The notes under the pieces were generated by a model. That model made no database searches. It worked only from the letters and a program-made list of their open reading frames with translations, and was not told the DNA's origin. 64,000 nt of DNA from the NCBI GenBank assembly GCA_002104985.1, contig MCGO01000001.1, positions 620,001-684,000 of the forward strand. Reading direction: 5' to 3'. Origin of the DNA: Rhizoclosmatium globosum (Eukaryota > Chytridiomycota > Chytridiomycetes > Chytridiales > Chytriomycetaceae). The translations under genes and the position numbers were made by a program. Of the stretch, positions 13,926 to 46,312 are shown piece by piece (within the stretch, counting starts at the first letter, position 1; each line of letters starts with the position of its first letter).

Positions 13926-14616
13926 ATGAGAAAAGTAGCAATGATACAGTTCCAAGGTCCAGGCGGTGTGGCACTTTGCGATGAACCGATTTGCTTTCAT
14001 GACAAACGGCAATGTCATGCCTTCCAACACTTGCTAGTACTTCTGTCATTTCTTCTGGATTAGCCGGTTCGCCTTCACTTCTAACAAACTACGACCAACC
14101 ACCCTCAGACAATGTCTACTTTATTCTTCGAATGCCGCAACAACAGAGCATCTATGTGTCTACAGGTGCTACGAAGGAATTCAAGGAGCCACTTCCCTCT
14201 TCTCCCAACATCCCTTATGTTACGATTCGGCCGGTTAATTCAATAACTGAAGCAGTGTCCCTATACTTCCAAACTCTGTTGCTATTGAAGTATTGACAAG
14301 ACATGTGCGATCAATTACACTCATCCAACATTCGACCACCCAATTACTCCGCATCGCACACCGATGGAACCTCAAATACGAAACAAATGTGAATGGTTCG
14401 GATGTGGTAGAACTTCACGAAACCTTCGTTACTAGCTGCTCACTTTAGAGCCCATCAAAACTTTCGCCCATTCCTCTGCACTATTTGCAATCATTCATCA
14501 TTTGCTAGAAATCACGACTTACGACGACACATACGACAGGTTCATGGAGTAATTGGTTTGGACAAGCCTGGGCACGCGAAGAGGCGAAACAAGACGGAAG
14601 GCTGTCTTTGGCAGTA
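13926..14616 (+). CDS. C2H2 zinc-finger array member A, degenerate
   Basis: The N-terminus carries the family motif (FQGPGGVALCDEP). A Ser/Pro/Gln-rich linker follows in another frame (SSGLAGSPSLL...DQPPSDN). Finger 1 is CEWFGCGR with its His pair in AAHFRAHQNFRPF; finger 2 is CTICNHSSFARNHDLRRHIRQVHG. No third finger follows: the frame runs into KPGHAKRRNKTEG and stops. At least two frame changes break the reading (one in the linker, one in finger 1 near 14430). It may be a pseudogene or affected by missing bases. It is one of only two array members on the plus strand. Confidence 0.55.
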
Positions 14617-14949
14617 GACTAATGACTGATGATACAAGAATCATTTTAAAATATAGTAACAATATCCATATTATTTCTTGTTGTTGTTATGGGATAACAA
14701 GCAGGCACGATTTCACAGGCAATTTGCACGGTTCAGAAACAAGCAGGAGACCAACGATCAAACAAACCAAGCGAGGTAGGGTTCACAAGAAAAGGTCGTT
14801 GGTGAAGCACACGTGCAAATTGTTTTCTGGGATCCATCTCTTGTTTCTGATGTCGCAATTTCCACGCAGCCACTGCGTGCCCACCGATAAAAAGTCAAAG
14901 GAAACGTCAAACTGTGCACGCACTTGAAAATCTTTAAATCTTGCATCAA
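14617..14949. other. Spacer between array members A and B
   Basis: No coding frame with recognisable features. AT-rich around 14640-14690. It would hold the terminator of A and promoter of B. Confidence 0.4.
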
Positions 14950-15590
14950 ATGTTCATTGGCCCTGGAGGAATCTCGCTCATTGACGAACCTGCCAACTGT
15001 CACTTACTTCACCTTCCACACCGCCATTGCAGTACTATGGCAGTCCGTCCCGGAAACCATTTACTTCCATCCATCACCGTCGTCCCTTTACCCACCAACA
15101 AGCACAATCTTATTCGCTATAAAGCGACCCCAAGTAGTCATGTCCCACTCCAACAACGATACCAGCAAGGAACAGTACTACCAAAACCTCCGATCAGGCA
15201 CGTCAAAAGCATACAAGCGATTCCAGCCATACACATCTCCTCCACCTGCATTACCAGCTGTAGTCGCCAGACTCCCAACAACACATTCCAGTGAATTGAC
15301 AGCACCCAAGCTTCCACAGACACATACGTGTAACTGGGAAGGATGCACCAAGACGTTCACGAAAGCGTCGCTTCTTACGTCGCATTTACTTTTGCATCAG
15401 AATGTCAGGCCGTTTCAGTGTACGTTTGCTGGATGTGGCGCTGCATTCACCGTGGGCATGACAGGTCAAGGCATGAACGACATGTTCACGCGGTTGTGCA
15501 TGAATATGTCAGTTTGGATGTGGGAAGCAGTTCTCGCGGTCAGATTCTCGGATGTTTCATGAACGGACGTGTACTTTGAAGCGGGAGTAA
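14950..15590 (+). CDS. C2H2 zinc-finger array member B
   Basis: The protein starts with the family motif after two residues (MFIGPGGISLIDEP). The linker frame with QPYTSPPPALPAVVARLPTT leads into three fingers: CNWEGCTKTFTKASLLTSH, then CTFAGCGAAFT followed by a frame with RGHDRSRHERHVHA, and last a frame with CGKQFSRSDSRMFHERTC. Each step between frames needs one missing base (in the linker, near 15452 in a CC run, near 15510). No intron splits finger 1, unlike most relatives. Stop at 15588-15590; the next gene converges 97 bp away. Confidence 0.65.
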
Positions 15591-15686
15591 CTTGGTTTAT
15601 GAAATTCGTTTCATCTATGCATTTGATTTATTTTATTTTGGCATTTCAGTAATATATACATGGTTTAGCAGTGTTTGGTATGTGGC

Positions 15687-17245: not shown

Positions 17246-17300
17246 TTCTTTTCTCCAAAGTAGAAATCCAACCAAACAAAAAAGTAACTATTCAAAAAGT
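17246..17300. promoter_or_regulatory. Shared 55-bp divergent promoter (WD40 / CWC2)
   Basis: The starts at 17245 (minus) and 17301 (plus) are separated by 55 bp that is A-rich (CCAAACAAAAAAG). A shared promoter is inferred from the distance only. Confidence 0.35.
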
Positions 17301-19229: not shown

Positions 19230-19579
19230 AACAGAATGCCAATAGAGTGTGGCACTGGACCAGTCCAAGCAGTGTATAAACCAAGCAGCTGAAACGAGGC
19301 GGTCCAGAACACTTAAATGTGTCTTTGTGTAACGTCAACGAGGTCTCGCCCTCGTCCAAAACCATCTTCGAATCGCTTCTTTCGTCGAAGCGCAGCAGTG
19401 AACGTCGAATGGGATGCACTATTTAATCAGTGGATCCAATTTGAAGCACGTGCTTCGACGGAGGCGCTTTGGTGCTTTTGGTGCTTCGATGCTTCGAATG
19501 CTTGGCTGGTCCTCGAACTCAAATCAAAACTTTGGAACAACACCAAAACTCACTGCGAAAACATACACACTCTCTCTCA
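19230..19579. other. Spacer / 5' leader of the zinc-knuckle gene
   Basis: No coding region supported. It contains CT-rich stretches just before the start at 19580 (ACTCTCTCTCAATG), which resemble a pyrimidine-rich fungal promoter or leader. Confidence 0.4.
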
Positions 19580-22612: not shown

Positions 22613-23630
22613 CTAAAATGACAGTTCGCTTGAGTCAGATGCACCAACACCTCCACAAGTCTTTTCGTGAAACCGTGCACTATCTGATCGAGTAAACAGC
22701 TTATTACATCGTCGACAGTGCGCCTCCTTGCCACCAACTTGGTGCACGCACCGCTCATGACGTTTCAGATCATGGTTCCTTGAGAAAGCAACAGGACAGA
22801 ATTGACACTGGAACGGTTTAATGTTCTCATGTATAAGTTCATGACTCCGTAACAGGCTTGGTTTTGCGAACTCTATTCATTTTGGTGAAAACGATTGGTT
22901 AGAGATCTTGATCATATCTGATGGAAGACACTCAAACAGGGTTCTCACGATGGCTCACCTTTTGTGCAACCCTCCCACATGCATTGTACATTTGCTTTGG
23001 CCTTTTGAAATGGCTGCGGACGCTTGCTCGAATAGGCATGTTATGAGGTGATGATGGAAGCTTTGGAATTTGTTGCATCACCATGGGTGATTGTGGCATC
23101 TGCTGTTGTACCAATGGAGAAGTAGCTGCTGCAGGCGGTGGAGGCGGAGGTGGGAGTGCGTGTAAGACTGGAGAGTGCATTGGTTGGAAGTGTTTGTATC
23201 CTTCTTGGAAGCCGTATCGGAGCTCGTGGTGTCGTAAAACGGTTTGTTCAGACTGCCAAGTGTGGGACAAGAGAACGGGCCTGAACGCTTTGATGAGGAG
23301 AGACGGCTGATGAGAGTACGTGTATGGACGGGTTGGGTCGTTGTAGAGTTGTTGCATTGAGACTGATCCTGCACGAGAACGTGCTGGTGTGATGGGAAGT
23401 ACGACTGGTTGCTCAGGAATAGATGCTGCAGGAGCTTCTTCTTCCTCTGAATCGTACATTAATGAAACACCACCAGGTCCTTTTGGTGCGCCAGATGGTG
23501 TTGTGGGCGAGGGCAAGTCGTCCTTAGTGCCACTTGTTAAATCACCCTTGCTTAACGTGGCAGCTGCGTCAGCGAGCCCGCGAAGGGCATCAGCGGCAGC
23601 CCAGAAATCACTAGCAGATGCGTATTGCAT
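22613..23630 (-). CDS. C2H2 zinc-finger array member C
   Basis: The family motif lies about 50 residues in (KGPGGVSLMYDSEEEE), followed by a Ser/Pro/Gln-rich linker with a poly-Pro run. Finger 1 (CMWEGCTK) ends exon 1 at 22959, one base out of the long upstream frame. After the intron 22873-22958, exon 2 gives EFAKPSLLRSHELIH, finger 2 CQFCPVAFSRNHDLKRHERCVH and finger 3 CRRCNKLFTRSDSARFHEKTC. This is the standard array plan. A nuclear DNA-binding regulator is inferred. One base is missing near 22990. Stop at 22613. Confidence 0.82.
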
Positions 23631-24114: not shown

Positions 24115-24916
24115 TCATTCCGAGACAGGGTCCGCCACGCAAGTCCGTTCATGAAAACTCCTGCTGTCTGGTCGAGCGAAATTCTTCCCACACGTTCGAC
24201 ACTTGGTTTGATCTTTGTTTTCCTGTGGATTTCTGATTGAGCTAGGGTGCAGGGTGGCAACAAGAATATCGAACTTACCCCAATGTGATGCACAGAGCGA
24301 TTATGCCGTCTCAAATCATGGTTCCTTGTAAATGCAGCGAAGCATATAGTACACTCATAAGGCCTTAGGAGTCGATGAACGTTCAAGTGGCTTTGCAACA
24401 AGCTGGGTTTCGGAAACGCTAAAATACAACCAATTAGAACCACCGATTCGAATAATTCGACTACTTACTTTTATCACATCCTTCCCATGTGCACGTATGC
24501 GACCGTTGTTGTGCTTTGACTTTCAGTGGCAACCCATGTGTGGGCGAACAACGGGCAAGCACCGCCTTTCTGGCTTCTTTTGGAATGCGTTGAATATGAG
24601 TAGCTGTTTCCTCTGAGTCGCTCTTTGATAATGAGGTTTTGCGTGAAATGGGGCTTTGATGACGGCAAAAGTCGGGTGTCGCTGAGAGGTCTCCATCATC
24701 ATTAAGAAGATTTACACCTCCAACGTTATATTCAAAATAGCGCAGTGGTGCTCCGGTATCGGAATGTTGCGGTGAGGAGCGACAGGGATTGTGGGATGTG
24801 GCTTTCTTGGCTGACTCGGTCTGACTAGTGGAGGTCGGTGACGGCGGTATTTTATAGAGTGCTACCGTATCTTGACAAGGAGCAGTTGAATCAATGTTGT
24901 AGGACGACGGACTCAT
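24115..24916 (-). CDS. C2H2 zinc-finger array member D
   Basis: Three exons: 24469-24916, 24279-24418 and 24115-24222. The motif reads NVGGVNLLNDDGD (the first Pro is replaced). Finger 1 is CTWEGCDK, split by the intron, continuing TFPKPSLLQSHLNVH; finger 2 is CTICFAAFTRNHDLRRHNRSVH; finger 3 is CRTCGKNFARPDSRSFHERTC in its own exon. The frame is intact throughout. The linker is Ser/Pro-rich and carries many Lys/Arg (RIPKEARKAVLARC). Closest in finger sequence to members B and C. Confidence 0.85.
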
Positions 24917-25167
24917 GGGTGATGATGATGGGGCACGAGTTTGAACTGAACTATTTTAACAGCGAAATGTTTCTGCCACATCTGTTTGAAACTCTTACAT
25001 GTAACCGCATAGACGGGAAGGCATGAAGAATTTCCCCGCGATGATGTTGGATTCCAAAAATCAGTAAAGATGGTCTGGCTTGACGAAACTCAAAAAAGTG
25101 TAAATTCTATTATAATCATACGAAAGCTAAACAAATAAAGCGATAATAAAAGCAGCTAGTAAAACAG

Positions 25168-25770
25168 CTAGTGAACTCGTCTCTTTTTACAGGTGCTCTG
25201 ATGTCTCTTACATGAATCAGTTCGGGCAAACTGCTTTCCACACTTGCTACAAGCAAGTATCCGTTGTGTCAAAAGATGAACAGAGCGCTGGTGACGGAGA
25301 AGATCATGGCGGCGAAGGAAAGAGACCGAACAACCGGGTTGCGCGCACATGTGTAATTTGTCGTTACTGCCTTCCATGTTTCCGGTTTCAATTTGAAAGA
25401 GAGGAACGGCATTTGATGAAGACACTGACAACAAAGCTTGTATTTCATTAGGACCCTCCGACGTTTCATAAATTTCTTGGTAGTCATTTGTAAGATGTGA
25501 TAGCGTTGATCCGTCATCAACAGAGAACAGTGTCAGAGACGACAACTGTGGAGAACCAGAGCGCTCTGAAATCTGAGGCGAAAGCTTAGGACTGGGAATG
25601 GCGTCGTCGAGCAAGTTGATGCCACCGGCTCCGCGAAGGTAAGCTGTTGAAGAAATGGGGCTTTCTGAAGTGGCAAGGCAGCTCGAGGTTGAAAGCGGAG
25701 CGGAATTATCCAGTGACAGCAAGAGATGAGCATGATGGATAAGCGGGGCTGAGGCTTTGGAGGCTTCCAT
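25168..25770 (-). CDS. C2H2 zinc-finger array member E, single exon
   Basis: An intact 201-residue frame with the motif LRGAGGINLLDDAIP, a Ser-rich linker and two fingers: CAQPGCSVSFLRRHDLLRHQRSVH and CSKCGKQFARTDSCKRHQSTC. There is no separate first finger and no intron, unlike most relatives. The ATG at 25770 is used; the frame stays open to 25854 without another ATG, so a longer protein is possible if the start lies in an upstream exon. Regulator by inference. Confidence 0.8.
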   Translation of the reverse strand: MEASKASAPLIHHAHLLLSLDNSAPLSTSSCLATSESPISSTAYLRGAGGINLLDDAIPSPKLSPQISERSGSPQLSSLTLFSVDDGSTLSHLTNDYQEIYETSEGPNEIQALLSVSSSNAVPLFQIETGNMEGSNDKLHMCAQPGCSVSFLRRHDLLRHQRSVHLLTQRILACSKCGKQFARTDSCKRHQSTCKKRRVH

Positions 25771-25997: not shown

Positions 25998-26967
25998 CTA
26001 TCCTTTACAAATCTTGACATGTCTTTTCAAGGAGTCAACTCGACCGAAACCTTTTGACGAACGTTAGCCACAATATCCAATGACAAAGTCAGATGATGTA
26101 CCTTTCCCACAAATGCCACAAGCAAACACTGGGGCCCCAGCTTTGACTGCATGAACACTGCGTTCATGACGAGAGAGATCCTATATCGCAAATTGTTACT
26201 GATTTTAGTTTACACAAGCCGCACCCTTACATGCTTTCGGGCAAACGACAAGGGACAGAGAGTACAAGCAAATGGCTTTATGTTTGTGTGAGAATTATTG
26301 TGTGAAATGAGATGCCATTGAGTCTTAAATTCTACAAAGATTGAAGTTATGGGTTTCATCTTAATGTATGTGGATTAAATACCTTTCCCGCACCCTTCCC
26401 ATTCGCAAACGAAGGAGGATGTGCTGGGGGATTTTCGTCGACTGGGACTTGGGGCACCTACCGATGACTGATGAGTCGGGGATTGTGCTGATATATCTGG
26501 TTGGTTATGAAACCTCCGACAACTTCAAATTGCCCATGACTACTATGCGGAATTGCTTGAAAGAGACCCTGGGGGGCGTGGCCTTCTTCGAATTTATCGA
26601 TTTGCTGCCTATTGCCAAGATCTTTGCTTTCCAATTGCGCCGCAGAGGATGAGGAGCCTCCGCCCATGTATACATGGTGAAAATAATACGATTGATTTGA
26701 GTAAAGGGTCTCAGGGGGTATCTGGGGTCGTTCCTGAGGCTCTGGCGAGTCCAAGATGTTTCGACCACCGGGCCAAGAACTCTTGAGTTGTCTCAAAAAG
26801 TGGCTCAGCAGCTGTAGCTATGTAATAACTAGAAGTAGCTGTTTCCTGAGGATAAGAATCTTGGATGGTTGTTAAGCGGTTTAGTGGCGTGACAGCAGCT
26901 GTTGACCACCAGGATCGGGTTGCTGCGGGATACTTTGGTCATAAGATTCTGAAGAGGTCGTTGACAT
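25998..26967 (-). CDS. C2H2 zinc-finger array member F, four exons
   Basis: Exons inferred: about 26383-26967, 26231-26331, 26102-26180 and 25998-26050. Introns interrupt all three fingers: after CEWEGCGK, inside CPLSFARKH/DLSRHERSVH, and after CGICGK/GFGRVDSLKRH. The motif is altered (SWPGGRNILDSPEP) and a second PGG-like stretch (DPGGQQLL) lies near the start in another frame. The linker frame changes at least once, so one or two bases may be missing before 26800. The last finger ends CKG just before the stop at 25998. Confidence 0.7.
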
Positions 26968-27777: not shown

Positions 27778-28574
27778 TCAATGCTGTTGTTCTTGATCCG
27801 GCAACTCCTTGCATAATCTCAAATGACGTTTCAAAGAATCCACACGTCCAAACTTTTTCAAGCATGCCTTGCAACTATATTGCGGTTCACTATCCTTGCC
27901 TGCATGGACTGTACGTGCGTGGCGGAGAAGGTCGTGCTTACGAGTAAAACTGAGAGTGCAGTCGGTACAACCGAAACTCCGCAAGTTCGTGTGATGACGC
28001 ATATGACTTTGAAGGTGCCAGGCAGTTTTGAAATACCGACCGCATCCTTCCCAATCACAGTGAAACTTTTTTGTTGGGTGCTGAGGGTGTTGGCTGACGG
28101 GTGTTCGATTAAAGGGGAGGAAACGGAATCCTCGGAATTCGACGAATGTGCTGGTGAAGAAGGGTGCGACTCATTGTCAGTTGAGAAGAAGTGTTGTGCA
28201 GGCGAGGCTAGAGGGCTGCTTCTGTATTGAGTTGCTGTGATATGCTGTTGAAGTTGATTTAAATGCGGTTGAACTCGGATTGCTTGAATTGGCCTGCTGT
28301 TATATTGCTGGATATGCTGGTGGATGTAGTCTTGGTGCGTTGGCGCATGCATAATGATACGGGGAGATGCAGTTGGTGTCTGTGGCGTGGAGCGTGGCGG
28401 TTCATGGATGCTCAAAGCGGATGATTCGCTGTAGTTTGCTCTTGTAACCGCATCTCTGAGAGCTTGTTGACCCAAGACGAAAGTGGTGGAAGGGTAACAT
28501 TAGTGTCCTTGGGGGCTGAAAAGCAAATCGGCGGAAGCTGCACGGAGTAAGCAATGCTATTCTGGACTGGCATG
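27778..28574 (-). CDS. C2H2 zinc-finger protein G (no GPGG motif)
   Basis: The start at 28574 gives MPVQNSIAYSVQLPPI and a linker rich in Ser, Thr, Pro and Gln (QPHLNQLQQHITATQ). Three fingers are coded: CDWEGCGRYFKTAWHLQSHMRHH, CTDCTLSFTRKHDLLRHARTVH and CKACLKKFGRVDSLKRHLRLC. The GPGG motif is absent. Finger sequences are closest to F and H. The linker is joined by one base missing at an AAAAAA run near 28070, and another frame change occurs near 28440. It ends with QEQQH at 27778. No intron needed. Confidence 0.72.
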
Positions 28575-29012
28575 GATGGCTGTGTCTTTGAGAAGATGCA
28601 ATTGAGTGATCGCCAGTGGTGACAATAGCTGGCATAGAGCGAGAACCTTTTTATGATGCAAAAGCGAAAAGGAGTGGCGGTTGGCATCAGAAGACATCCG
28701 GTTCGTCCGATGCGAACCCTGAAAACCCTCATTTTCGAAGGGTTTGTTCCGAAAATTGTGTGCGCCTCGGAAAGCCACGCTCGCAGCTCGGCACGCTTCG
28801 CTGACGCCATTCATTCAGTGAGAGTAAACATTGTAAAGGTAAAGGAAGTTGTTTACTGTGCCTTGTGCAACTTCTCCGAGACTCGGTGGATGTATATCTT
28901 TGGAGACGCAACGAAACTGAAACACAGATGGTGATGGGCGAAATTTTCCGAAGTTGCGTGTTTCCTATTGGGTTATCGGACGATGATTAATTGACAGAGT
29001 TTAATGACCTGG
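28575..29012. other. Spacer between member G and the small ORF
   Basis: Contains GGCGAAATTTTCCGAAG at 28937, similar to words upstream of other array members. No coding region supported. Confidence 0.35.
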
Positions 29013-31614: not shown

Positions 31615-32824
31615 TTACTGCCCAAACTGTCCCTTCTCCCTACAAATATTAACATGCCTCCTCAACGAATCAACCCGTCCAAACCCATGTCCACAGTTCC
31701 CACAAGCAAACAACGGCTGCCCCGCCGCAACTTCATGCACACTCTTCTGATGCCGCCCCAAATCGTGTTTTCGAACAAAGGCAAGCGGACACTGGTCGCA
31801 CTGGTGTTTTCGGACATTCTCGTGATGCTTGATATGGAGATGCATTGCCACGGTGTTCCAAACTCTTTTGGCAGTCGTCGCGCGGGCAGGGGTACGCTTT
31901 CTGGCCGTTGGGGAGGATTCGGAAGGGGATTGTTTTTGAGAGTGGTTTGTTTGAGGGTGGGACTTGTTCGGGAAGGATTGTTTGAGGAACTGGTTGAGTT
32001 GGTGGGATTGGGGTTTGTTGAGGGGCGATGGGACGGTAGATTGGTTGTTGGATGTGGTGTGGGGTTTGATGTAATCCCTGGTTAGGCTCGGATTGAAAAT
32101 GTGTTTGTCGAGGTTGCGGAGCAATTAAAGATACAGGTTGCGAATACTGAAGATGATATTGAACCGGCGGTGCTTGTATAGGTTGTGGCTGAGATCGAAA
32201 TTCGTGGTTTTGAGGAATTTGTCGATTTGTGGGATAGGCGGCGACACAGGAGGAGAATAGAATGAGGAACCGTGTCCGACTGAGTGAGGTAGTAAGGACG
32301 GTTGATTTTGCTGAAACGAATTCGAAGCGGATTCTGAGGAACAACATTCGGTACATGTTGATTTTGACGCATGTATGTGTTGGTGGGGGCTGTTGAATAA
32401 ATTGGGCTTGGGGGGCGAAAGGTGATTTTGTAGACAATGCGACAAGGTGTTGAGGCGGTTGATATGGCCTGAAACGGTTGCTAATTGGAGGAACACGATG
32501 GACTATCTCAACCTCCCGTCGAGGTTGAGTTGGTAAAGGGTTCACAACATCATCAACGAGGCTGACAGATCCAGGACCTAATGGGGCTCGTGGAGGCGCT
32601 GTTGGTCTTGAATCCGTAGAATCGCTGGACCCTGTCGCGGGGAAAGCCTCTAAGGGCTGCTTCGAGGATGCTCTGTTCATGAGCAGATAGTTTGCTCTTT
32701 GTTGTTGTTGGAGCGGCATTGCAACGACCGATGATGGCGGTGATGGAGGAATGGATCTTGGGCTAGAGGTGTGTTGGCCGGCAGGGAAGTGGGCAAGGGG
32801 TGCCTGAGAGGGAAGCAGACTCAT
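31615..32824 (-). CDS. C2H2 zinc-finger array member H
   Basis: The start at 32824 leads to a long Pro/Gln/Ser-rich region with the variant motif APLGPGSVSLVDDVV. Fingers: CPRDDCQK (joined after one missing base to VWNTVAMHLHIKHH), CDQCPLAFVRKHDLGRHQKSVH and CGNCGHGFGRVDSLRRHVNIC. The fingers match F and G most closely. The middle frame (about 32080-32400) reads with less biased residues than expected, so compensating one-base losses are likely there. The final residues are EKGQFGQ. Confidence 0.72.
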
Positions 32825-33464: not shown

Positions 33465-35211
33465 TCAACAGTTGTATCCCTCCAACGAAATTCCCTTGAT
33501 CTGAATGATTTGCATACATTTCGACAACCTTGAATCATCACCGGCAGGCTTCAAATGTCTCTTGAGTGCATCACTACGCAAAAACGACCGTGAACATGCT
33601 GGACAGACATGCTGCTTCCCACCACCATGAATTAACATATGTCTCTTGAGATCGTGATGTCTGAAAATGACATTGGACATTGCGTGCACACAAAGGGTCG
33701 TTCACCAGTGTGTTGGCGGTAGTGTGAGCGCAGGTTATAAGGTCTTGTGAATTGTCGACCACAGCCGTCCCAGGGACAAAGGAAAATTGATTTTCCTGAA
33801 GCGTCTTTGTTGCTGTGATTGGGATTTGGGAAGCCGCGTCGGAGCCGGAACCGAGGTGGGTGTCGGCACCCGTCGAAATCACCGTCTTCGTCGTTGGAAC
33901 CGTACAGACCGTTCATTCCATGAGATCCGTGTTGTTTTGGACATGATTGCAGAGAAGGGGAGGTCGAATGCCTGGTTGTTGAAGGAGGAAAATGGAAGGT
34001 CGGGCATTGGAGCAGGAATTTGAAAGACGGGGGTGAGCATTTGTTGCTGCTGTTGCATAATGTTGGAGTTTTGTGGAGAAAGTCCAGATGACTTGATGGG
34101 TGATGTTTTGCGCGAGTTTGAAGTATTGATGGCTGAAGGGCGCTGTTGAGGAGCAGCAAATGTAGGAGTACCAGAGAGAATGGCTGCCATTGACATGTTA
34201 TTGTTGTACATTGGTGGAACAGTTGGTGTGTTTGGAGTTGAAACATCTAGCGACGCGGCAGTGGCGGCAAAGTCTTGAACTAGCTGCTTCTGGTTGTACT
34301 GTCAAACTGGTTTGGAAGCGAGGGGAGTGAACATTTGGTGAGGTGGAGGCAGCAAGAATCAGAGAGATAGTTTGTCTGTTCACTGCTCTGAATTCTTCAA
34401 AGTTTGTGATTGGATTTGGAGGGAAGCCGGGAGTGTTCATTGAGTGGTTGTTGAAGTTTGGGGTGCACATTCCGAGTGCAGGAAAGCTCTGGTGGTTGAG
34501 CTGCGGCCTTGCGGAAGACAAGAGAGAAGCGAATGAGTCCAGGTTCTGTTGTTGTTGTTGGTGTTGTTGTTGTTGCTGAGTCATCGGCGGCACGGGCGAC
34601 AGACAGGGCATCTGAGCCGGGCCATTTGTAAAGAGCGGCGTTGTTGGCGACGGAATGAACGACGAGGTCAGCGTCGACGGCCGGCTGCTTCCAAAGGCCG
34701 GCGATGCGTCGCCGAGGCCGAACGACGGCGCATTCGAATTCGAATAGTTCGTGTTGTCGTCGCCGCAGATTTTGTTGAAGAACTGGTTTGGATTGGTTGG
34801 TTGGTTGGTTGGTTGGATTGGGTGAAGGAAGGCAGTGTTCAGCTACAACTATTCTCACTTTCAAACAAGTATAGTACTCACATCGAGATCGAGGTCGAGG
34901 CCCTGCGACGCCGCATTGACGCCGCTGTCAAAGGCTGAGAGCATCGTGTCCACTTGAGTGTCAACTCCTGTCAACAGATGAAACAAAATGATGGTTAGTT
35001 TCAGCCGCCGAAAGGGGGAGTCCAATAATTGATGGAGTGAATACTAACCATTCATTTGTAGCTTTGGCGTTGGTTGCACTCCGGTCTTGCCGGAGCTGTT
35101 GGCTGCTGTGGTATTTGAGCTGCTTGAGTTGCTGAACGTGCCACCACTTTGATGTGATTCAGCAAAACCCGTTTGAGTATCCATAGTTGTGGCAGTGAGA
35201 GGGGCGGACAT
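33465..35211 (-). CDS. Crz1-like C2H2 transcription factor (I)
   Basis: Three C-terminal fingers: [43 protein letters not shown] (one base missing at 33665) and [20 protein letters not shown]. The YNLRSH and SDALKRH forms and the TGERPFVC linker resemble Crz1, the calcineurin-controlled regulator. The long N-terminal part is Ser/Asn/Gln-rich with a polyGln run. No GPGG motif. Exons 35049-35211, 34882-34967 and about 33465-34782; introns 81 and 99 nt. Other single-base losses appear near 34300 and 33915. Ca2+/calcineurin control is inference only; no clear PxIxIT site was identified. Confidence 0.7.
34789..34816 (+). repeat. (TTGG)n microsatellite in an intron
   Basis: Five to six TTGG units lie next to the 3' splice site of the 99-nt intron of the Crz1-like gene. 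On the coding strand it reads as CCAA repeats just before ACCAG. A likely site of length variation between strains. Confidence 0.8.
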
Positions 35212-35992: not shown

Positions 35993-36571
35993 CTAGTTTC
36001 CTCGATATGGACAACTCTCCCGCATATGCCGTTGTAACGAATCCTTTCGTGCAAAACAATCCAAACATTGAGGACATTGAAACTGCTTGCCAGGACCAAC
36101 ATCATGCACGGATTTGATGTGCCGTGATAAATCCCTCTTTCGCACAAAATCCATCGTGCAAAATGTGCATTTATGGGGTCGAATGTTGCTGTGGATGAAG
36201 AAGCTGAGGTGAAGGAGAAGAGTTTTAGAAAGTATCCTAATTCGGCGATGTTATCTTTAAACTCACTGTGACTTTAAGTTGAATCCTTCTGTGAATTCTA
36301 ATTGCGATATAGAAACCGTTTTAATGAGTCTGTGTTAAAAGTAAGCAGTGAGCGACTCACCCTTATTGCATCCCTCCCATGGACACTTGAAGACTTGCTT
36401 CGATGTTGAACTGGAACTACCCTCGCCGAATCCAAACTCAGAGTCTGATAGTAATGGGGACTGTGTTGGCTCCCGTGAAGCCGCCTCTTGTTGTGATGAT
36501 ATCACCAGGTCTGATTTCAGATTCGTAATCGGATCAACGAGATCGACTCCTCCAGGTCCTTTGAAACTCAT
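35993..36571 (-). CDS. C2H2 zinc-finger array member J
   Basis: The protein starts MSFKGPGGVDLVDP, so the motif is at the very N-terminus. Exon 1 (36361-36571) ends with CPWEGCNK. A 31-nt exon 2 (36267-36297) gives EFTEGFNLKSH and exon 3 (35993-36203) gives HFFIHSNIRPHKC. Fingers 2 and 3 are CTFCTMDFVRKRDLSRHIKSVH and CPQCLDCFARKDSLQRHMRESC. The frame is kept by introns at 36298-36360 and 36204-36266 (63 nt each). The short linker (about 55 residues) is Ser-rich. Intact. Confidence 0.82.
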
Positions 36572-36654
36572 GATTGGTAACTCTCTGGCACTGATACGAA
36601 GTCAGTCAGTATGCCAATTAACGGAAGGATCTTTGCCGAACCGGAAACAGGGCA

Positions 36655-37386
36655 TCAGATTCCGCGAAAGGATTTGAAACACAAATTAAAAGCAACAGCA
36701 AAGTTCGCAGGACATACTCCGCCTCGTTGTTGATGGCGACGCAAAGAATCTATTCGTGCGAATCCAGTTCCACAGAACACACAAGAATACGGTTTCACTG
36801 TATTATGCACTGTGGCCACGTGTCTCTCCATATCTCGTACACGATTAAAACTCCGAGGACAAAACTTGCACACAGTTTTAATGATAGATTGCGTGTGAGT
36901 GGCTCGATAATGCGGTTTCACGTTGTATGATTGGGTGAATTCTAAAAATGGTGCGGTCAAGTTTTAGGGCTTGCGTTTTTGGCTTTTGAAGGTTTTTTGG
37001 GGAGAGGAGTACCATTTACCTTTGTTACAGCCGGGCCAAGGACATCGGTACCTCAATCCATGCGACTTATTTACAACTATTGGCGGCGGAGGGGTGCTTG
37101 AGGAGCTCCTTTGAGTGGCTTTGGTAGACCAATTAAGTTCCCGTGACCTTGGTTCTGCTTCGTATGATAAAACCGGAGACGAGTGGTACGCCGTCGGTAC
37201 AGGGAATGTAGGAGACGGGTAAGAGTAGATTGGGGACTTTGAATTTTGATTAACGGCCAGCAGCTGTGCATGCCCAGATGGCTGATTTAAGTCGATAGTG
37301 TCTGCCAAAAGAAGTGATATGCCTCCAGGCCCAAAGAAAGTAGTTTCGCACGACATGGCATGGTATAGATCTCGTTGTTCCATCAT
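36655..37386 (-). CDS. C2H2 zinc-finger array member K
   Basis: Exon 1 is 37020-37386, exon 2 36655-36941. The motif is TTFFGPGGISLLLADT at residue 15. Finger 1 is split after CPWPGCNK and continues EFTQSYNVKPHYRATH; finger 2 is CKFCPRSFNRVRDMERHVATVH; finger 3 is CVFCGTGFARIDSLRRHQQRGG. The linker is Ser/Pro-rich (STPPPPIVV). The ATG at 37386 is used; the frame is open further up with only a GTG. Intact. Confidence 0.84.
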
Positions 37387-37555: not shown

Positions 37556-38260
37556 TCAAATTGTGGAAGTTCCGTGTACATTCTTCATATGCCGTACAAG
37601 TGCATTTCGTCTTGAAAACCCAAACTCACACACTCGACACACGAATTTCCTCGCATTCAAGTGTGTTGCAACCTCGTGCCTCTCGCAATCTCGTTTCCGG
37701 GCGAACTGTTTCGGGCAATACCGACAGTGGAAATCACGGATATTCAAATGGAGAAGAAAGTGGGGTTTAACGTTGTAAGACTGTGAAAACACCTTCTCAC
37801 AGCCGGGATAAGGGCATTGGAATGGACCTTCCGATTGTGTTTGATGAAGAGAAGGAGAAGTTGACGCAGACGATGATGTAGTGGCTTGTTGTGGAAAGAC
37901 GCAGGAGTCAACGGGTTCGATTGTAGTTTCATAAAGTAGAGGGGTTTGTGCTGAAGATGTTGTGAGGGAAGGCGACGACGGAGTAGTTTGAAACAAATGT
38001 TGAGGAGTAGAGTATAAAAGAGTCTGTGGCGGCTGTTGAGAAGCCTCGAAGGAAGATAATGGAGCATTCTTTTGATATGGTTGCTGGTACAGCGGCTCAT
38101 GATAGCTGTAACTCAGGATTCGAGGCGTCTGTGACTGATCTGAGTAATCAACTATGATGTTGCTGTCGGAAACGTCTACGTCGTCGTTATTGAGAAGGAT
38201 GCCGCCTGGGCCGTGGTAGAGCACATTGCACTGCATTTGGTTCTTGACTGATTTTGTCAT
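37556..38260 (-). CDS. C2H2 zinc-finger array member L, single exon
   Basis: An unbroken frame: motif YHGPGGILLNNDDVD, a Ser/Thr/Pro/Gln-rich linker, then three fingers: CPYPGCEKVFSQSYNVKPHF, CRYCPKQFARKRDCERHEVATH and CRVCEFGFSRRNALVRHMKNVH. It ends GTSTI. It is a close tandem copy of member M (same linker landmarks such as SQTPRILS and TTPSSP). No introns, unlike J, K and N. Confidence 0.88.
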   Translation of the reverse strand: MTKSVKNQMQCNVLYHGPGGILLNNDDVDVSDSNIIVDYSDQSQTPRILSYSYHEPLYQQPYQKNAPLSSFEASQQPPQTLLYSTPQHLFQTTPSSPSLTTSSAQTPLLYETTIEPVDSCVFPQQATTSSSASTSPSLHQTQSEGPFQCPYPGCEKVFSQSYNVKPHFLLHLNIRDFHCRYCPKQFARKRDCERHEVATHLNARKFVCRVCEFGFSRRNALVRHMKNVHGTSTI

Positions 38261-38692: not shown

Positions 38693-39370
38693 TTAAATTG
38701 TTGATGTTCGATGAACATTCTTCAAATGCCGTGCAAGTGCGTCTCGCCTTGAAAACCCAAACTCACACACTCGACACACGAAATTCCTTGCATTCAAGTG
38801 CGTTGCGACCTCGTGTCGCTCGCAATCGCGCTTGCGGGCGAATTGCTTCGGGCAATGTCGGCAGTGGAATTCACGAACGTTCATATGGAGGATAAAGTGG
38901 GGTTTTACGTTATAAGATTGGGTAAATAGCTTTTCACAGCCGGGGTAAGGGCATTTGAACGGGCCTTCCTTTTGTATTGGAGGCAGCGAAGGAGAACATG
39001 ATGGAGGAGTTGATATAGAGGCTTGTTGTGGAGAGGAGCAAGAGTCAAACGTTGTAATAGGGGTATCATGCAGTATAGGGGTGTGTGCTGAAGAAGATGT
39101 GATGAAGGGTGATGACGGGGTGGTTTGAAACACATTTTGAGGCGAGGAACACAAAAGAGACTGAGAAATGCACTCGGGAGCTTCGATAACTGCTACTGGC
39201 TCATGTGTCTGATATGAATGACGTCGGTATGGCAGCTGGGGAGGCCCATTGCTCAAGATTCGTGGAGTTTGTGACTGATTTGAGATGTCAGCCAAGGAGC
39301 AGTCATCTGAAACGTCGTCTTCATTCAGAAGTATGCCTCCTGGTCCACGGTAGCGCATATCGCACTGCAT
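38693..39370 (-). CDS. C2H2 zinc-finger array member M, single exon
   Basis: Intact 225-residue protein with MQCDMRYRGPGGILLNEDD at the start and the same three-finger end as L: CPYPGCEKLFTQSYNVKPHF, CRHCPKQFARKRDCERHEVATH and CRVCEFGFSRRDALARHLKNVH. L and M are tandem duplicates: the fingers are nearly identical, while the linker has changed. The two also share upstream sequence. Confidence 0.88.
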   Translation of the reverse strand: MQCDMRYRGPGGILLNEDDVSDDCSLADISNQSQTPRILSNGPPQLPYRRHSYQTHEPVAVIEAPECISQSLLCSSPQNVFQTTPSSPFITSSSAHTPILHDTPITTFDSCSSPQQASISTPPSCSPSLPPIQKEGPFKCPYPGCEKLFTQSYNVKPHFILHMNVREFHCRHCPKQFARKRDCERHEVATHLNARNFVCRVCEFGFSRRDALARHLKNVHRTSTI

Positions 39371-39573: not shown

Positions 39574-40360
39574 CTATTCTCCCCGTCCAACACAACCCCT
39601 CAAATGTCGTTGTAATGAATCCCTTCTCGCAAATCCCCCATCACAAATATGACATTTAAACTCTTTCCCGTGCCCATGAACCGTCCGTATATGCCTCTGT
39701 ACGTCCCTTTGACGAACGAAATCCGAATCGCATTGGTCACACTTGAAGGGCCGAATATTCGAATGCAAAAAGAAGTGAGATTTGAGGTTGTAACTCTCAG
39801 TGAATTCTATCCGTTTAGAATTAGTTTACAAATAGGTTGGAAATTAACTCCTTCGACATACCCTTTTCGCAATTTGGCCACGGACATGCATAAATCTTGG
39901 TTGCGCCATCCGACCTGACAATGGGACAGAATGTGCTCATCGTTTCGGCGAGAGCATATCGGCTCCCCATCGGCTTTCTCGTCAAGCCGGATACTGAAGG
40001 TGCAGGATGCGAAGGCAAAAATGCCTCACTACTATCAGCCTCACTGACACTGGACTTATATGGAAGAGAAGAGGCTGGGATGCCCTTTCGATTGTATGGC
40101 TGTTTTGATGACTGCGTATCTTGCGGCAGGTTTCGCTGATGAATGTTTCCTGAATCAGACGGGGATGGAACAGCATGATACAATGGATATGATGGAGCGT
40201 AGGCGAGCTGGGGCGTCGATGATCCGCTCGACAATAGTGCCGGTGAAGAGCTGCTGTTCAGAGATTCGCAAGCAAAGGAGTCATCCGTGAGTAGATTGAT
40301 TCCGCCAGGTCCGCGAAGCACAGGGATGGTATACATAGGGTACGGCTGATACGTTGGCAT
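39574..40360 (-). CDS. C2H2 zinc-finger array member N
   Basis: Exon 1 39862-40360, exon 2 39574-39806. The motif is VLRGPGGINLLTDD at residue 16. Finger 1 is CPWPNCEK then EFTESYNLKSHFFLH after a 55-nt intron; finger 2 is CDQCDSDFVRQRDVQRHIRTVH; finger 3 is CHICDGGFARRDSLQRHLRGC. Intact. The linker is Ser/Pro-rich with a Ser-Tyr rich start (PTYQPYPMYTIP). Confidence 0.87.
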
Positions 40361-40666
40361 TGGCGAGAGGACAGGTGGAGCAAGACGAATGTTGTGTTAC
40401 TCCTTTTTCGAATCCGCTTTTTGTCTTCCGTGGGCCACGGAGCCAATCAGATTGAAGGATGGCGTTTTAGGCGTGACGAAAAATTTCAATTTCTTGGATC
40501 CCGCTTTGAGTTGGCAACCAACCTCAAACAATCAAATGTTAGAAACAATCAAAACAACTGAGCAAAACAGACGAAGAACTGGAACAATTTGATACCTTCG
40601 AGCGACAAACTAAGTGGTAAAGTTCGATATATTGAATCATTATAAATCAAACAATTTATTCACATA
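40361..40666. other. Spacer between member N and the membrane-protein gene
   Basis: Contains GACGAAAAATTTCAATTTC (40475) upstream of N. No coding frame supported. Confidence 0.35.
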
Positions 40667-41459
40667 TTATGCAAGTGATTGATTGAACGGATGCTTCTCG
40701 GCAGAACTGGTCCCGTAATTGTTCAATGGCACGAAGCTGCTGTTCAATGGTGCAGTTGTGACGATTTCCCTTTCAACACTTTTTCTCTCCTTAGCGTCTC
40801 TATAAGCAAGGATGCCAAAAACAAGGATGGCCTCAATCAAGAAGAAAGATCCAAACGCAAGTCCAATCACGAGGTAGTTTTTGCACGTGGCATAAACGTC
40901 TTCCATTGTGATGTTGGGGCTGTCGTCGACATAAATGTAGCTTGTTCCAATATCGTTGTATCGGTTTTGGTAGACGGGTCCCCAACTGAAGAAGATGACA
41001 GCATAGAGTAAAGTCGCAATGGCTATTCCACGTAAGTACGGCTTGCGGAAATTATAGGTATCTGGTGCACAATATAGCGTGAAGCCCACAAATATGGGAG
41101 ACAGCATCATGGTTGCAAGGAAGCCAATAATGGCAGAAAGTATTGGCTGCATGCTTTGTTTTGCTTGAATAGAATATGTGATTAGAATGAAATTGGAGCT
41201 ACGACTGAACATGCATTTTTGGTGAAAGCTTGAGATGCTGCTGAACACGGCGCAAAACATTAACGCGGTAGAGCCAGAAGCAGAACAGTAACAAAACTAG
41301 AGTTAAGTTGCGGGGATCATTCCTCGAAGATCCGCGGAAGCTGAAGCCTTTCCAGGCAATAGAACGGAATGTCTGCAAAGATGGAGACACAAAAACGAGG
41401 AAACCAATGAGAGTGATAACAAAGGGCTGAAGTGGTTTTGTATTGGCAGAACAGAACAA
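40667..41459 (-). CDS. Multi-pass membrane protein, unknown
   Basis: Hydrophobic segments are visible in one strand: LIGFLVFVSPSLQTF, LVLLLFCFWLYRV, ILSAIIGFLATMMLSPIFVG, IAIATLLYAVIFFSW and YLVIGLAFGSFFLIEAILVF, so four to five transmembrane helices. A loop with Tyr/Asp/Asn (NRYNDIGTSYIYVDDSPN) lies before the last helix, and the tail is polar. The two open pieces (41199-41459 and 40667-41260) overlap in different frames; they probably join by an intron near 41200 or a missing base. The start codon is not fixed. Function unknown. It interrupts the zinc-finger run. Confidence 0.5.
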
Positions 41460-41498
41460 ACTCTGGAGAGTAGAACATCAATAGTCAAAATACATTTA

Positions 41499-42210
41499 TT
41501 ATAATTCATTATTCCTTTCATTTGCTTCTTTTGATTCGTATAATTCCCTCCAGGCCTCTCCCACTTTCGTACTCTGGAATACCTTACTATCATTTCGTTC
41601 ACTTGAAGGGCCACCTCCACACAACCGTTCATGTCGTCGTTTTGCATCTAAACGAGAAAAGTTCATATTGCACTTCGAACAGCTTGGAAGCTCTTTTGCG
41701 AAATTGTGGGTCTCTTCATGACGTGTTTTATCATGTTTCCTAACAAACGTCGCATCACAGTGACTGCATTTATGTGGCCGAATATTGTTATGCTCGTTAC
41801 AGTGCGTTTGAAGAGTGCTTGGCCGGTCAAAGACTGGTTATCACGAATTATTAAGATGATCCAACGGTGTGATTTCACATATTGAGTAGATGTGTTCAAG
41901 GAGTGTTCGTCATACCTTTACCACAATGAGGGAATTCACAAGCGTATCGTTTTGGTCTTGGTTTCCGTTTCCGTTTCACAGGTATTGCGCCGCTTGTTGA
42001 TACTCCTGACTGAAGTACTTCTGGTGCACAATAATTCGAGTACGAATCGGATTTATCGTCTTTGTGGTCAAAAGCATCATTGTCTGATTCACAGCGTTCT
42101 GAGGAGGAGCAACTGCCGCTTGAGGAGATCGGACAACTTGAGGTAAGCAAGTTAACACCGCCAGGACCAATGAAGCTGCCGCTGGGAAACATAGGAAGGT
42201 AGCAAGGCAT
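41499..42210 (-). CDS. C2H2 zinc-finger array member O
   Basis: Exon 1 41916-42210, exon 2 41499-41833. Motif: SFIGPGGVNLLTSSCP. Before finger 1 is a basic run (KRKRKPRPKRYAC) that may be a nuclear signal. Finger 1 CEFPHCGK is split, then VFDRPSTLQTHCNEH; finger 2 CSHCDATFVRKHDKTRHEETH; finger 3 CSKCNMNFSRLDAKRRHERLC. A 40-residue tail follows. Start uses the ATG at 42210; the frame is open farther upstream with a GTG. Intact. Confidence 0.83.
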
Positions 42211-42418
42211 TAGGTATATGTGGCCAAGGCTTCTTGGATCTTTTTGTGGCCGTCTGATTCGAAACTCTGTCACGAATCACATTTTTTGATTTTGTCAGCC
42301 AGCTCATTTCCCTTGACGTAAGCAGTAATGTTACAAACCATTTAGCTAGAGCATCTATACTTTAACTGAAATCTAAAAAGATCAATGGATGCGAAGTACA
42401 CACAACTTATGACACAAT

Positions 42419-43225
42419 TTATTTGAATACAGAACTACAGCCTTTTTCATGCCTCCGCAACGCATCCGTACGGCTAAAACTCATTCCACATGATCTACAT
42501 GATGATGAAGGCTTCCCCTTGTGATGTACGGTACGCTCGTGTCGAAGTAGATCATGCTTACGGGTGAATTTGAAGGGACAATCAGGACACTCAAACGGAC
42601 GGATACCGTTGTGTTCGTTGTAATGTACTTGTAATGTGCATGGGCGGGCAAAGGCTGATGATATCGGGGTGATTAGTCATGTGAGAGGAGGAAAAAAGAA
42701 AGCAATCAGGTGACCGCGAGAGACGAAAGAGGGTGGCTTCTTACATTTATCACATCCTGCAAACTCGCACTTGTACTTTTTGGGACGGGGCTTTGAGTTT
42801 GGCTTTTTACTCGACAGCCTCACTAGTGACCCTGATGCAGCAAAATCGTCGTCGCTCTCGGAAGATACTGGAGAGAAACTCTCGTCGGGACTTGTGGAGG
42901 CGGAGACTGAGGGTTGGCGGTGTTGAACTTGTTGTGTTGCGTAAGGTGGGGAGTCATGGTTCAGCTCAAACGTTTGTGGCAACGCCAGGGGTGCCAGTGG
43001 GTTTTCGGGGACGGAATATGAAGTGGTAGAAGGTGGAGTTGCTGAAAGTACTGGACTGTCTAATAGGTTGATACCTCCTGGTCCACGTAATGTTATGGCG
43101 GCGGGTGGCTTATATGCCGAATCAAATGCGTCCACAACCTTGGATTCAGTGGGCTGCCTGGAAAGCTGCAACAAGAGCGCGGAAGCATCTGACTCGTGTT
43201 GATTGTAGACGGGGAAGACGGGCAT
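42419..43225 (-). CDS. C2H2 zinc-finger array member P
   Basis: Exon 1 42745-43225, exon 2 42419-42654. The motif ITLRGPGGINLLDSP sits near residue 50. The linker is Ser/Pro/Gln-rich and acidic (SSESDDDF). A basic patch (KPNSKPRPKKYKC) precedes finger 1 (CEFAGCDK, split). Then SFARPCTLQVHYNEH, CPDCPFKFTRKHDLLRHERTVH and CRSCGMSFSRTDALRRHEKGC. Intact. Like O it has a basic run before the first finger. Confidence 0.87.
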
Positions 43226-43962
43226 TATGCTTGACTTTGACAGCAACGGACGGGGTGGTTCAGCAATCTTGTTTGTTGAGGCTTGCAAGAAACGGTTACG
43301 GGAGCTTGGAGGTGGTACCGAGGAGACTTAGAATCCTTGAAGCAGACAAGAGTACGATGAGGGGATTCCGTGTAAATGGTATGACAAAGAACGGTTTGAG
43401 CGCTGGCCAAACGAAGATTTTCGAAGAAATTTTTCTTGAGCCCTGCAATTTGCGGAGATGAGGAAAGGCCCCAGAATTTCGTCTTGCTAAGCAGAAATTT
43501 CAGGAGTCCTTAACGTCCGCCGTAAGATCTTTGTAGTATGTTCAATCGGGCAAGAATTAGACTCAATTCCGACAGACACTACTCGATTTTGTCAAGAAAG
43601 GGCACATAAGGATTTACTTGTCGAACTCCGTTGGCTCCGTCAGCCATCCCATTACAAATGGCCGTGTAAGAAATGATACGGCAACACGTGCTAAGAAGTC
43701 CACCCTCCATATTACTTTGATCAAACTATTTCAAACGAGTAGGGGCTTTTACGACGAAATCAACAGAAAACGCTACAGTGGAAGGTAAAGCCACCTTAAA
43801 TGTGGCAGAACCAACTTGAAGTAAGAAATATGAAAATGTATTAGTGAAAGTAGGAAAAGTTGACTATAAATGATATACATAATAGGTACAATGAAGAAAA
43901 GAGAAAAGTAGAGCACGTTGGCATCTGGGAGGTAACTGAGAGGCAATTACGAAGAGTAGATG
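43226..43962. other. 737-bp spacer between members P and Q
   Basis: No gene. CGAAGAAATTTTTCTTGAG (43424) is an A/T-core dyad like those upstream of other members. Confidence 0.35.
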
Positions 43963-44989
43963 TTAGGTTTCCATAGCATCTGACGCTCCACTTCGCCCCT
44001 CTCCACCAGGAAGGAAGCAAATCTTTTCGTGTCGCTTGAGAGAATCAGGCCTCGAAAAGGTTTTGCCACAGCCACGACATACATCTCCTTTAGGTCCAAA
44101 TGAATGAACAGTCTTTTGATGTCTGGATGATATAATATTAATAAATGAATTAGTAAAAGAGGAAAACACGTGGAAGTATTGTGTCTGGCTTACCTAAGCA
44201 GATCATTCTTTCGAGTGAACCGTGCCTGACAGTCAGCTTGTGGACAAATGTGGGCTGGTATCTCAGGATGCATCAATGCAGTATGATTCCTTAATTCACT
44301 TGCGCGCGAGAACTCTAATTGATGGTGGTTGGCTGAGTAAGTGTGACAGATAACAACGAAGATAACACTCTTAAGGGAAAAGAATAAATACCTTGATTAC
44401 AATATTCCATTGAACAAACGTACACTCGATCCCCTAATGCGTTTGTTTTCACGATTGATGAGACGTTGGAAGAGATGACGCTCCATGTGCTGTCGCTTTG
44501 CCGGCGCAGGTCCTGATACTCTTGGAAGGGATTTGTGATCGGACCTGGAGATGAGATTGGCGAAGTTGGGATAATGTGGAGACGGCCGGTGCGTGGGTCG
44601 CGGTGTGGGAGGGAGCCGGATAGGAGGGAGTTGTGGTAGTCGCGGGCACGGATTCGGGTTGGTGTTTCTGATGTGCTAGGGTATTCTTCGGAAAAGGCTC
44701 GTTGGCGTGGTGGGTCTGGATCTGGGAGCATGTATTCGGTCATTAGGATATCATTCATATCAGCTTCGGGACTGCTGTCGTTGAGGATATCTACGCCACC
44801 GGGGCCTCGGAGGGTAGGTGCTGATGATACGATTGTTTTAATAGACATTGGAGACGTTGCTGCACGTGGATTGTTTCCTCTTGTTGGAATTGGGATTGGG
44901 GCAGATGGTTGCGGGAAGGAGGGCACGCCACCGGCCGTGTTGATTGCGTGAGCTTGTTGACGAGTGTCTGGGAACTGATGTCCGTTCAT
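43963..44989 (-). CDS. C2H2 zinc-finger array member Q
   Basis: Exons about 44392-44989, 44194-44314 and 43963-44122. Motif TLRGPGGVDILNDSSP at about residue 60. Finger 1 CSMEYCNQ is split, then EFSRASELRNHTALMH; finger 2 has CPQADCQARFTRKNDLLRHQKTVH with a second intron just before the final His-containing part; finger 3 is CRGCGKTFSRPDSLKRHEKIC. The linker is Ser/Pro/Arg-rich. Intact; introns 77 and 71 nt. Confidence 0.84.
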
Positions 44990-45490
44990 ATTTAAACGAA
45001 TGGAGGGAGTGGGAGTGTACGTTGATGAAGGAGGGAAGAGTGGTTGCGGCAGATTCTAATTCGAGAAGTTGTGATTTGTGGGCGGACACTAGGGTTTTTA
45101 TCAGTTGGGGGAAAGCGAAAAGATAGCAAAAAAACCGGGGTACTACGCCACCCGCGGTGACTGAAAAGAACTTGAGTACTCAGAACTGATAGGAACTCTG
45201 TGATCTGGGGGGAAGAGTTGTGATATTGGCTTTTGCTGCGCAGAAGGAGGAATGACGCGATTGACAAAGACGTCCGGGCTCTAGCACATGGAATCATCTT
45301 AATGTGTTACTCAGTTTTAAGTGATGAGCGTGCAGCTGTTACTCAGTGAAACATCAATATCAGTTCAGCAATATCAACAGAATCTATTTACGCATTACAT
45401 TATAAAAAAACAAACAAACAAATAAGAACGAAGAAGAATACAAAAATACACATGGATGGGCGTTGGTGGTGGTGTGGCTGAATGAATTTG
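44990..45490. other. Spacer between members Q and R
   Basis: Includes ACTACGCCACCCGCGG at 45141, a GCCACC-containing word shared with other upstream regions. No coding region supported. Confidence 0.35.
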
Positions 45491-46312
45491 TCAGGCTGTT
45501 GATGCCTCCGTACATCTCCGTTCATGTCTCCTCAAAGAATCTGGGCGAGAAAATGCGTTGTTACAAAATCTGCATACGCAATTCTTAGGTTTCTCTTGTT
45601 CCTCTGACTTGTGGACGGTCTTGAGGTGCCTCAAAAAGTCGTGGCGGCGAGTGAAACGTGAGGAACAAAAGGTACAAGCATGGGGTTTGTCAACTGCATT
45701 GCGACTGTAGAGCATGGAAGGATGGTGTGATGCTGTTGAGAAAGGAAGGTTAGGTCATGTGTTTGTTTTGGCGGCGGGGTGGCGTTTTGTTTGCCAGGGT
45801 TGTTATATCTCACCTTTTGGGGAATTGATTGAGGAGCCAGAGAGGGCGTATTGGTGGTGAGAGCGGATTGAGAGTAGTGGAGAGGTTGTTGTGATAGGAG
45901 GTGGCGTTGATTGTGAGATAACACGGGCTTGAGGGACTTGAGTGGCTGTCAGCGAAGGGTAGGTTGGGACATGGTCCTTGAATGGAATGTAGAGCGCGTG
46001 GAAGTAGGATTGCACAGCAGATTCTGGGAGTTGCATTGGCGGAATCATGAGTGGTCCTTGTTGAGATAACGTGGAGGGTGAAGAACTTTGTGAATCATCG
46101 TCTTCGTCCTCTTCCAGGAGGTTGATTCCTCCGGCTCCTCTAAGTACAGCGACGGGAGAGGGCTCAAAGGAGGAGAGAGTTGATGTTGGTGGGGATGGGA
46201 GTGAAGGAGAAGACAGCGAAGGCAATGTTGTAGACATCTTGCGAGAATGTTGGATTTGAGACAGCGGAGGCAACTGGGATTCAGTTTGACAGATAGTAGC
46301 AAGGTATTCCAT
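45491..46312 (-). CDS. C2H2 zinc-finger array member R (two fingers)
   Basis: Exon 1 45814-46312, exon 2 45491-45732. The motif is AVLRGAGGINLLEEDEDDD. The Ser/Pro linker ends at SINSPK and, after an 81-nt intron, ASHHPSMLYSRNAVDKPHAC leads straight into finger 2 (CTFCSSRFTRRHDFLRHLKTVH) and finger 3 (CRFCNNAFSRPDSLRRHERRC). Finger 1 is missing. Last minus-strand member of the array. Intact. Confidence 0.83.

Follow-up and report, generated by a model that had tools for sequence, protein, structure and literature searches.

The 64,000-nucleotide window analysed here (C1:620001-684000 of Rhizoclosmatium globosum, family Chytriomycetaceae) contains an array of seventeen C2H2 zinc-finger genes, A and B on the plus strand and C–H and J–R on the minus strand. 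On balance, we consider that this array is probably a Chytriomycetaceae-level tandem expansion of a Crz1-type transcription factor, with a shared DNA-binding core, a finger 1 specific to each subgroup and a tag that docks a cofactor. The original prediction had listed sixteen genes (A–F, H and J–R) with a GPGG-type N-terminal motif; the tag was seen in all 16, and the list omitted gene G, which is untagged but belongs to the array by the tree described below. R. globosum is a saprotroph that uses chitin (PMC12115818). Contig C393 carries a second copy of the array region and was taken as the other haplotype. Nine of its 11 aligned blocks are 92–97% identical to the window, and the remaining two, at genes K–L, show 82% and 88% identity.

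DNA contacts of the three fingers

Base contacts were defined as helix positions −1, 2, 3 and 6. In all 11 Crz1-type rows chosen for reference, gene I of the window among them, the contacts of fingers 1, 2 and 3 are RYNS, RHDR and RDAR, so that gene I meets all three Crz1-type sets. Finger 1 with RYNS was found in none of the 14 array members compared with this reference pattern, which comes from these 11 rows and does not include yeast Crz1. The array instead has nine different finger 1 contact sets in 14 rows (EYNS, EFNS, QYNP, RCTV, RSTT, KSLS, TWHS, TWQS and RSEN), with R[HRN]DR in finger 2 and RD[SA]R, RNAR or RDSF in finger 3. Mean pairwise identity at the contact positions is 0.21 for finger 1, 0.85 for finger 2 and 0.76 for finger 3, and at the other helix positions of the same rows it is 0.27, 0.26 and 0.25 respectively. 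The difference in contact identity between fingers 2 and 1 was matched in 0 of 2000 swaps. The paralogues had been predicted to differ mostly in their linkers and finger details; they differ in more than the linkers, and mainly in the DNA-contact residues of finger 1. In six cross-genus pairs, which fall in four subgroups and are thus not independent, the contacts are identical at 72/72 positions, and the other helix residues at 55/72.

The Zif268 code assigns GNG to RD[AS]R and GCG to RHDR. Because the contacts of fingers 2 and 3 are kept, the predicted array core under this code is 5'-GNG-GCG. Crz1 sites have been reported as GNGGC(G/T)CA (PMC6942403) and GNGGCKCA (PMC9604740). With fingers 2 and 3 nearly fixed and finger 1 changed, the array should therefore keep the Crz1 core and vary the adjoining bases. 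Judging from the residues, the RDSF finger 3 of B, C and D should have lost the outer G contact.

Finger number and the finger 1 intron

Three fingers are present in 14 of the 17 members (B, C, D, F, G, H and J–Q). Two are found in E and also in R, where a degenerate first finger precedes them, and A has no finger beyond the second on either haplotype. A phase-1 intron directly past the C-x-K/Q of finger 1 is common to ten genes (C, D, F, J, K, N, O, P, Q and R), with C taken from the C393 model and Q from the window model only, as the C393 model of Q reads through this intron. The intron is absent from A, B, H, L and M, finger 1 of G is uninterrupted in the window, and E is without finger 1. 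Because the intron splits finger 1, only two fingers are visible when the genes are read exon by exon. The earlier count of two or three C-terminal fingers thus becomes three in most members, the 'two' being mostly an artefact of the intron-cut finger 1. The proposed finger forms also needed loosening: finger 2 is not always of the [KN]HDL form, having RD in J, K, L, M and N and ND in Q, and the CGxxFxRxDSL form of finger 3 often has DA, with B, C and D ending in DSxxFH.

The N-terminal tag

The pattern G[PA]G[GS][IV]x[LI] is matched by 14 of the 16 tagged genes, the exceptions being D (NVGGVNLL) and F (WPGGRNIL, which is GPGGRNIL on the other haplotype). G has no tag in the models of either haplotype. 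In the window models the tag begins at residue 4 to 85, counted from predicted starts. The consensus of 21 tags is R/K (13/21), G, P, G, G, I/V (19/21), N/S/D, L, L, followed by D/N, D/E and D. Over the eight positions past the core of these tags, acidic residues make up 34% versus 7.6% in the linkers of 12 window models, and basic residues 0.6% versus 8.6%; at least one acidic residue follows the core in 20/21.

The original prediction had left room for a motif occurring at chance level. Within the window, the tag pattern occurs 14 times, always in array genes, whereas 100 first-order Markov copies average 0.08 occurrences and never have more than 1. The R. globosum assembly (56.9 Mb, 420 contigs) was also searched with DNA patterns. 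That for GPGG[IV]xLL gave 12 matches, eight of them in the array (K, N, O and P, both haplotypes), and its reversed control gave 0. Three of the four matches outside the array have no C2H2 fingers in the surrounding 1.8–2.3 kb, and the fourth lies on contig C213. The pattern for G[PA]GGINLL gave eight matches genome-wide, 8/8 in the array. Chance origin of the tag was rejected on the Markov expectation in the window and the distribution of matches over the genome. A generic motif of C2H2 genes was likewise rejected, as the tag was found in 0/17 non-array C2H2 loci (50,059 bases, most with about 1.5 kb either side, some loci being copies of each other). A Pfam scan of 14 modelled members (E up to 0.001) matched 12 models of zinc-finger type, plus DUF7128 in one member (4.5e-4), and no KRAB, ZAD, SCAN or BTB domain.

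Relatives and phylogeny

Three word-seeded searches returned 67 different proteins, every one of which was scanned for the tag. Tagged proteins come only from five Chytriomycetaceae genera: Rhizoclosmatium (P0001, P0032), Obelidium (P0003, N-like; P0030, P-like), Siphonaria (P0031, P-like; P0034 and P0035, C-like), Podochytrium (P0036, C-like) and Chytriomyces (P0039 of Chytriomyces sp. MP71, near F and H). Their tags include GPGGRNL in P0036, GAGNVSL in P0039 and WPGGRNIL in P0038, the deposited gene F. One other match to the pattern, GPGGVGV at residue 236 of the mollusc sp8 protein P0021, looks like chance. Among the 67, no tag was found outside Chytriomycetaceae, nor were the same genes found as the single dispersed orthologues in distant fungi that the original prediction had named as evidence against it. 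The proteins read from Chytridium, Cladochytrium, Phlyctochytrium, Boothiomyces, Mucor, Halteromyces and Basidiobolus are three-finger Crz1-type and untagged. Obelidium P0003 and P0030 are probably clustered, since they bear identifier tags 868920 and 868923 and lie on contigs of equal size. A search with the 14-row alignment missed relatives that single-sequence queries recovered, and in a search of solved structures the matches listed (60 of 169) were C2H2 proteins of other kinds.

A finger-region tree was limited to rows with three fingers (33 rows, 90 columns), leaving A, E and R outside. The 14 array rows and six relatives (20/20) form one side of a branch supported at 95/91, and across it lie 13 rows of Crz1-type or other kind, gene I among them. 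The paralogues thus form one clade, as had been anticipated. The subgroups J/N/K/L/M, O/P, B/C/D and F/G/H each contain at least one row of another genus, which places the array duplications before the genera, and an expansion within one species was rejected because such rows occur in all four. With tagged proteins in five genera, the expansion is dated early and placed at the level of the family: within the proteins searched, the lineage restriction first proposed stands for Chytriomycetaceae, but the expansion is neither recent nor purely local. Gene I, Crz1-type and untagged inside the array, is a candidate for its founder.

Genes of the array

The genes, with window coordinates, are as follows; modelled array proteins have about 140–435 amino acids.

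A, 13941..14560, plus: tag at 13956; fingers 1–2 only in both haplotypes; frame broken in window, open in haplotype 2
B, 14950..15590, plus: tag at 14959; three fingers; frame broken in window; open single-exon allele at C393:82787-83431
C, 22613..23630, minus: tag at 23480; three fingers; frame break upstream of finger 1 in window, open on C393; relatives P0034 and P0035 (Siphonaria), P0036 (Podochytrium)
D, 24115..25024, minus: variant tag NVGGVNLL at 24727; three fingers; conserved intron
E, 25168..25770, minus: tag GAGGINLL at 25632; fingers 2 and 3 only; single exon
F, 26005..26967, minus: variant tag PGGRNIL at 26772; three fingers, each with an intron; deposited as P0038; relative P0039 (Chytriomyces sp. 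MP71)
G, 27778..28640, minus: untagged; three fingers; deposited as P0033; start uncertain
H, 31615..32824, minus: variant tag GPGSVSLV at 32578; three fingers; finger 1 frame-broken in window, open in haplotype 2
I, 33465..35211, minus: untagged, Crz1-type; three fingers; frame-broken in window, open at C393:110052-111435
J, 35993..36571, minus: tag at 36559; three fingers; conserved intron
K, 36655..37383, minus: tag at 37332; three fingers; conserved intron
L, 37556..38236, minus: tag at 38212; three fingers; single exon; haplotypes differ in copy number
M, 38693..39370, minus: tag at 39346; three fingers; single exon
N, 39574..40360, minus: tag at 40312; three fingers; conserved intron; relative P0003 (Obelidium)
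O, 41499..42210, minus: tag at 42168; three fingers; conserved intron
P, 42419..43225, minus: tag at 43084; three fingers; conserved intron; relatives P0030 (Obelidium), P0031 (Siphonaria)
Q, 43963..44989, minus: tag at 44806; three fingers; conserved intron and another in finger 2
R, 45491..46312, minus: tag GAGGINLL at 46138; fingers 2–3; first finger degenerate, its intron at the shared position

Comparison by eye shows two deposited models to be mis-joined (window 22613-43225): P0001 combines pieces of P, O, N and L, and P0032 runs D and C together. Because such models fuse adjoining members, surveys of deposited proteins would undercount the family. Foreign genes within the array include a piece of an ABC-2 type transporter (30465-31352, plus) and a 196-amino-acid gene without a Pfam match that by eye looks membrane-spanning (40673-41260, minus). 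Outside the array, a gene at 55246-56391 (plus) matches Pfam PF17017, 'aberrant zinc-finger'.

Haplotype differences and turnover

Between the haplotypes, the ratio of amino-acid-changing to silent polymorphism (pN/pS) over ten genes (R, Q, P, O, N, M, K, J, E and D) is 0.26 overall, 0.11 in the fingers and 0.42 in the N-terminal parts, with poorly matching codon stretches dropped and the fingers of J counted with the N-terminal parts. For gene E alone it is 0.02. In the window, A, B, C, H and I all have broken frames, and on C393 the frames are open, from tag to fingers in A, B, C and H and through three fingers in I; the breaks may be real null alleles or assembly errors. C393 also has an extra L/M-type copy, which an insertion of about 7 kb divides into a tag part and a frame-broken finger part. 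With this extra copy and its insertions, C393 indicates that the array is still changing.

The insertion that splits the L/M-type gene (C393:114788-121967) is a haplotype-specific Ty3/gypsy-like element with reverse transcriptase and chromodomain matches. A haplotype-specific Helitron-like insertion of about 8.7 kb (C393:101147-109829; Helitron_like_N, PIF1) lies beside gene I.

Proposed mechanism and alternatives

In the mechanism that we propose, the ancestor would have been a Crz1-type three-finger C2H2 transcription factor, which would then have acquired an N-terminal tag, mostly [RK]G[PA]GG[IV]xL[LMV] plus acidic residues, and the finger 1 intron. Fingers 2 and 3 would retain the base contacts reading 5'-GNG-GCG, the core of known Crz1 sites, and finger 1 would have been released from its ancestral contacts and then refixed in several subgroup-specific forms. 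From these residues, each subgroup is predicted to read the same core plus a flanking triplet of its own, and the tag would most probably dock one shared transcriptional cofactor. The hydrophobic and acidic make-up of the tag suggests that an activator is somewhat more likely than a repressor. Tentatively, at a little under an even chance, the array could be a fungal counterpart of the animal KRAB-zinc-finger plan: a still-changing tandem panel in which all members share a private tag for docking a cofactor and read a core with two fixed fingers, while one finger became a subgroup address reader frozen across genera. The Crz1-type gene from which this panel would descend is still present in the array.

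A number of observations weigh against this proposal. The tag has no Pfam match, it stops after GPGG in the deposited model of P0030, and its restriction to Chytriomycetaceae comes from three word-seeded searches. Two R. globosum rows that lie on the Crz1-type side of the tree but outside the 11 reference rows depart from the Crz1-type pattern, C202 (RYNS, RHDR and a deviant finger 3) and C179 (KMNS, RHDR, RDAR). The F–P0039 pair was chosen by likeness; the tree places P0039 beside H with weak support (91/33), and in that pairing 11/12 contacts agree, one finger 1 contact differing. In a first tree, which contained five two-finger rows, three of these nested within the array clade (93/90), so the array was not alone; the second tree has these five rows removed and four others added, and it is limited by its 90 columns, several long branches and the missing A, E and R. 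GNGGCK occurs 38 times upstream of array genes versus 33.9 ± 7.0 expected (p 0.28) and is not enriched, leaving autoregulation of the array unsupported. Gene R has four amino-acid-changing and no silent differences between haplotypes. Part of the finger 1 variation could be loss of role, a normal finger 1 being missing from both E and R.

One alternative is that the array members are still calcineurin-regulated Crz1 paralogues, as the Crz1-type ancestry of their fingers might suggest. The calcineurin docking motif of yeast Crz1 is PIISIQ, a PxIxIT motif (PMC9604740). PxIxIT-like motifs occupy no shared position in the array, with single matches scattered in the models of R, H, E, C, A and F and those in L and M lying inside finger 1, and we think continued calcineurin control very unlikely. 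A decaying birth-and-death cluster, with a tag that is merely inherited from the shared ancestor and with many genes on the way to being lost, would fit the five frame-broken genes, the split L/M-type copy and Helitron-like insertion on C393, the degenerate or absent finger 1 of R and E, and the excess of changing differences in R. Yet all five broken genes are open on the other haplotype, with assembly error a possible cause of the breaks, the finger pN/pS is low, and tag and contact residues are preserved across genera, which makes decay unlikely.

The near identity of finger 2 and 3 contacts is also what would be expected of dosage copies acting on the same sites and separated by expression timing, with finger 1 adding little to binding; E and R persist without a normal finger 1, E with its very low pN/pS. 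However, the finger 1 contacts agree at 4/4 positions in each of the six cross-genus pairs (3/4 with P0039 set against H), a degree of conservation not expected of a dispensable finger, and we rate this explanation as rather unlikely. Another reading concerns the tag, which might be a corepressor-docking, degron or localisation motif and not an activation or coactivator motif. It is short, sharply conserved and N-terminal, with LL and then acidic residues, and repressor tags of comparable size exist in WRPW and EAR. By eye it matches neither of these, and its acidic-hydrophobic make-up suits activation regions at least equally well; we give this reading a substantial chance, somewhat under even.

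Comparison with known systems

If the proposed expansion of a Crz1-type factor is correct, the array would be a family of transcription factors not described before, from a fungal lineage that branched off early. A literature search found no description of a GPGG-tagged family, in agreement with the original prediction that none with this motif and plan was known; the sources included PMC8887899, PMC12115818, PMC5415576, PMC8778642 and PMC10406608, as far as their available parts go. The array would be a natural paralogue series in which one recognition unit has changed and its partners are almost fixed, so that one could test directly how DNA specificity evolves when a single finger changes. 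The private tag hints at a new cofactor.

Within R. globosum, two-finger C2H2 families (C101, C1:870 kb, C389, C18/C359/C117) resemble the array in their Ser/Pro-rich N-terminal part and, in those read, RxDR and RD[SA]R-type contacts, but lack the GPGG tag in the loci read. Four loci, L003 (C101:424120-427182), L008 (C101), L059 (C1:869201-872000) and L060 (C389), make up a second two-finger family with an N-terminal stretch of its own, about LPSVWxLFRSC...LPSLxxQLxxHxxxxxxLE. A further two-finger cluster (L032–L034) lies at C18:8-19 kb, C359:330-353 kb and C117:5.7-17 kb, and the copies read are without the tag.

The calcineurin-responsive Crz1/CrzA factors of fungi are similar in that their linker is rich in Ser/Pro/Gln/Thr and the array has, in fingers 2 and 3, the same kind of contacts (RHDR, RDAR or RDSR) as the Crz1-type rows used here. 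The array differs from them in its other finger 1 contacts, GPGG tag, seventeen-gene cluster and lack of a shared calcineurin docking motif. The KRAB-ZNF and ZAD-ZNF genes of animals are likewise tandem C2H2 paralogues with one common N-terminal effector element and diverging contacts. In contrast to these, the array has a short motif in place of a folded domain and at most three fingers, and it diversifies mainly one finger, whose contacts are then retained across genera.

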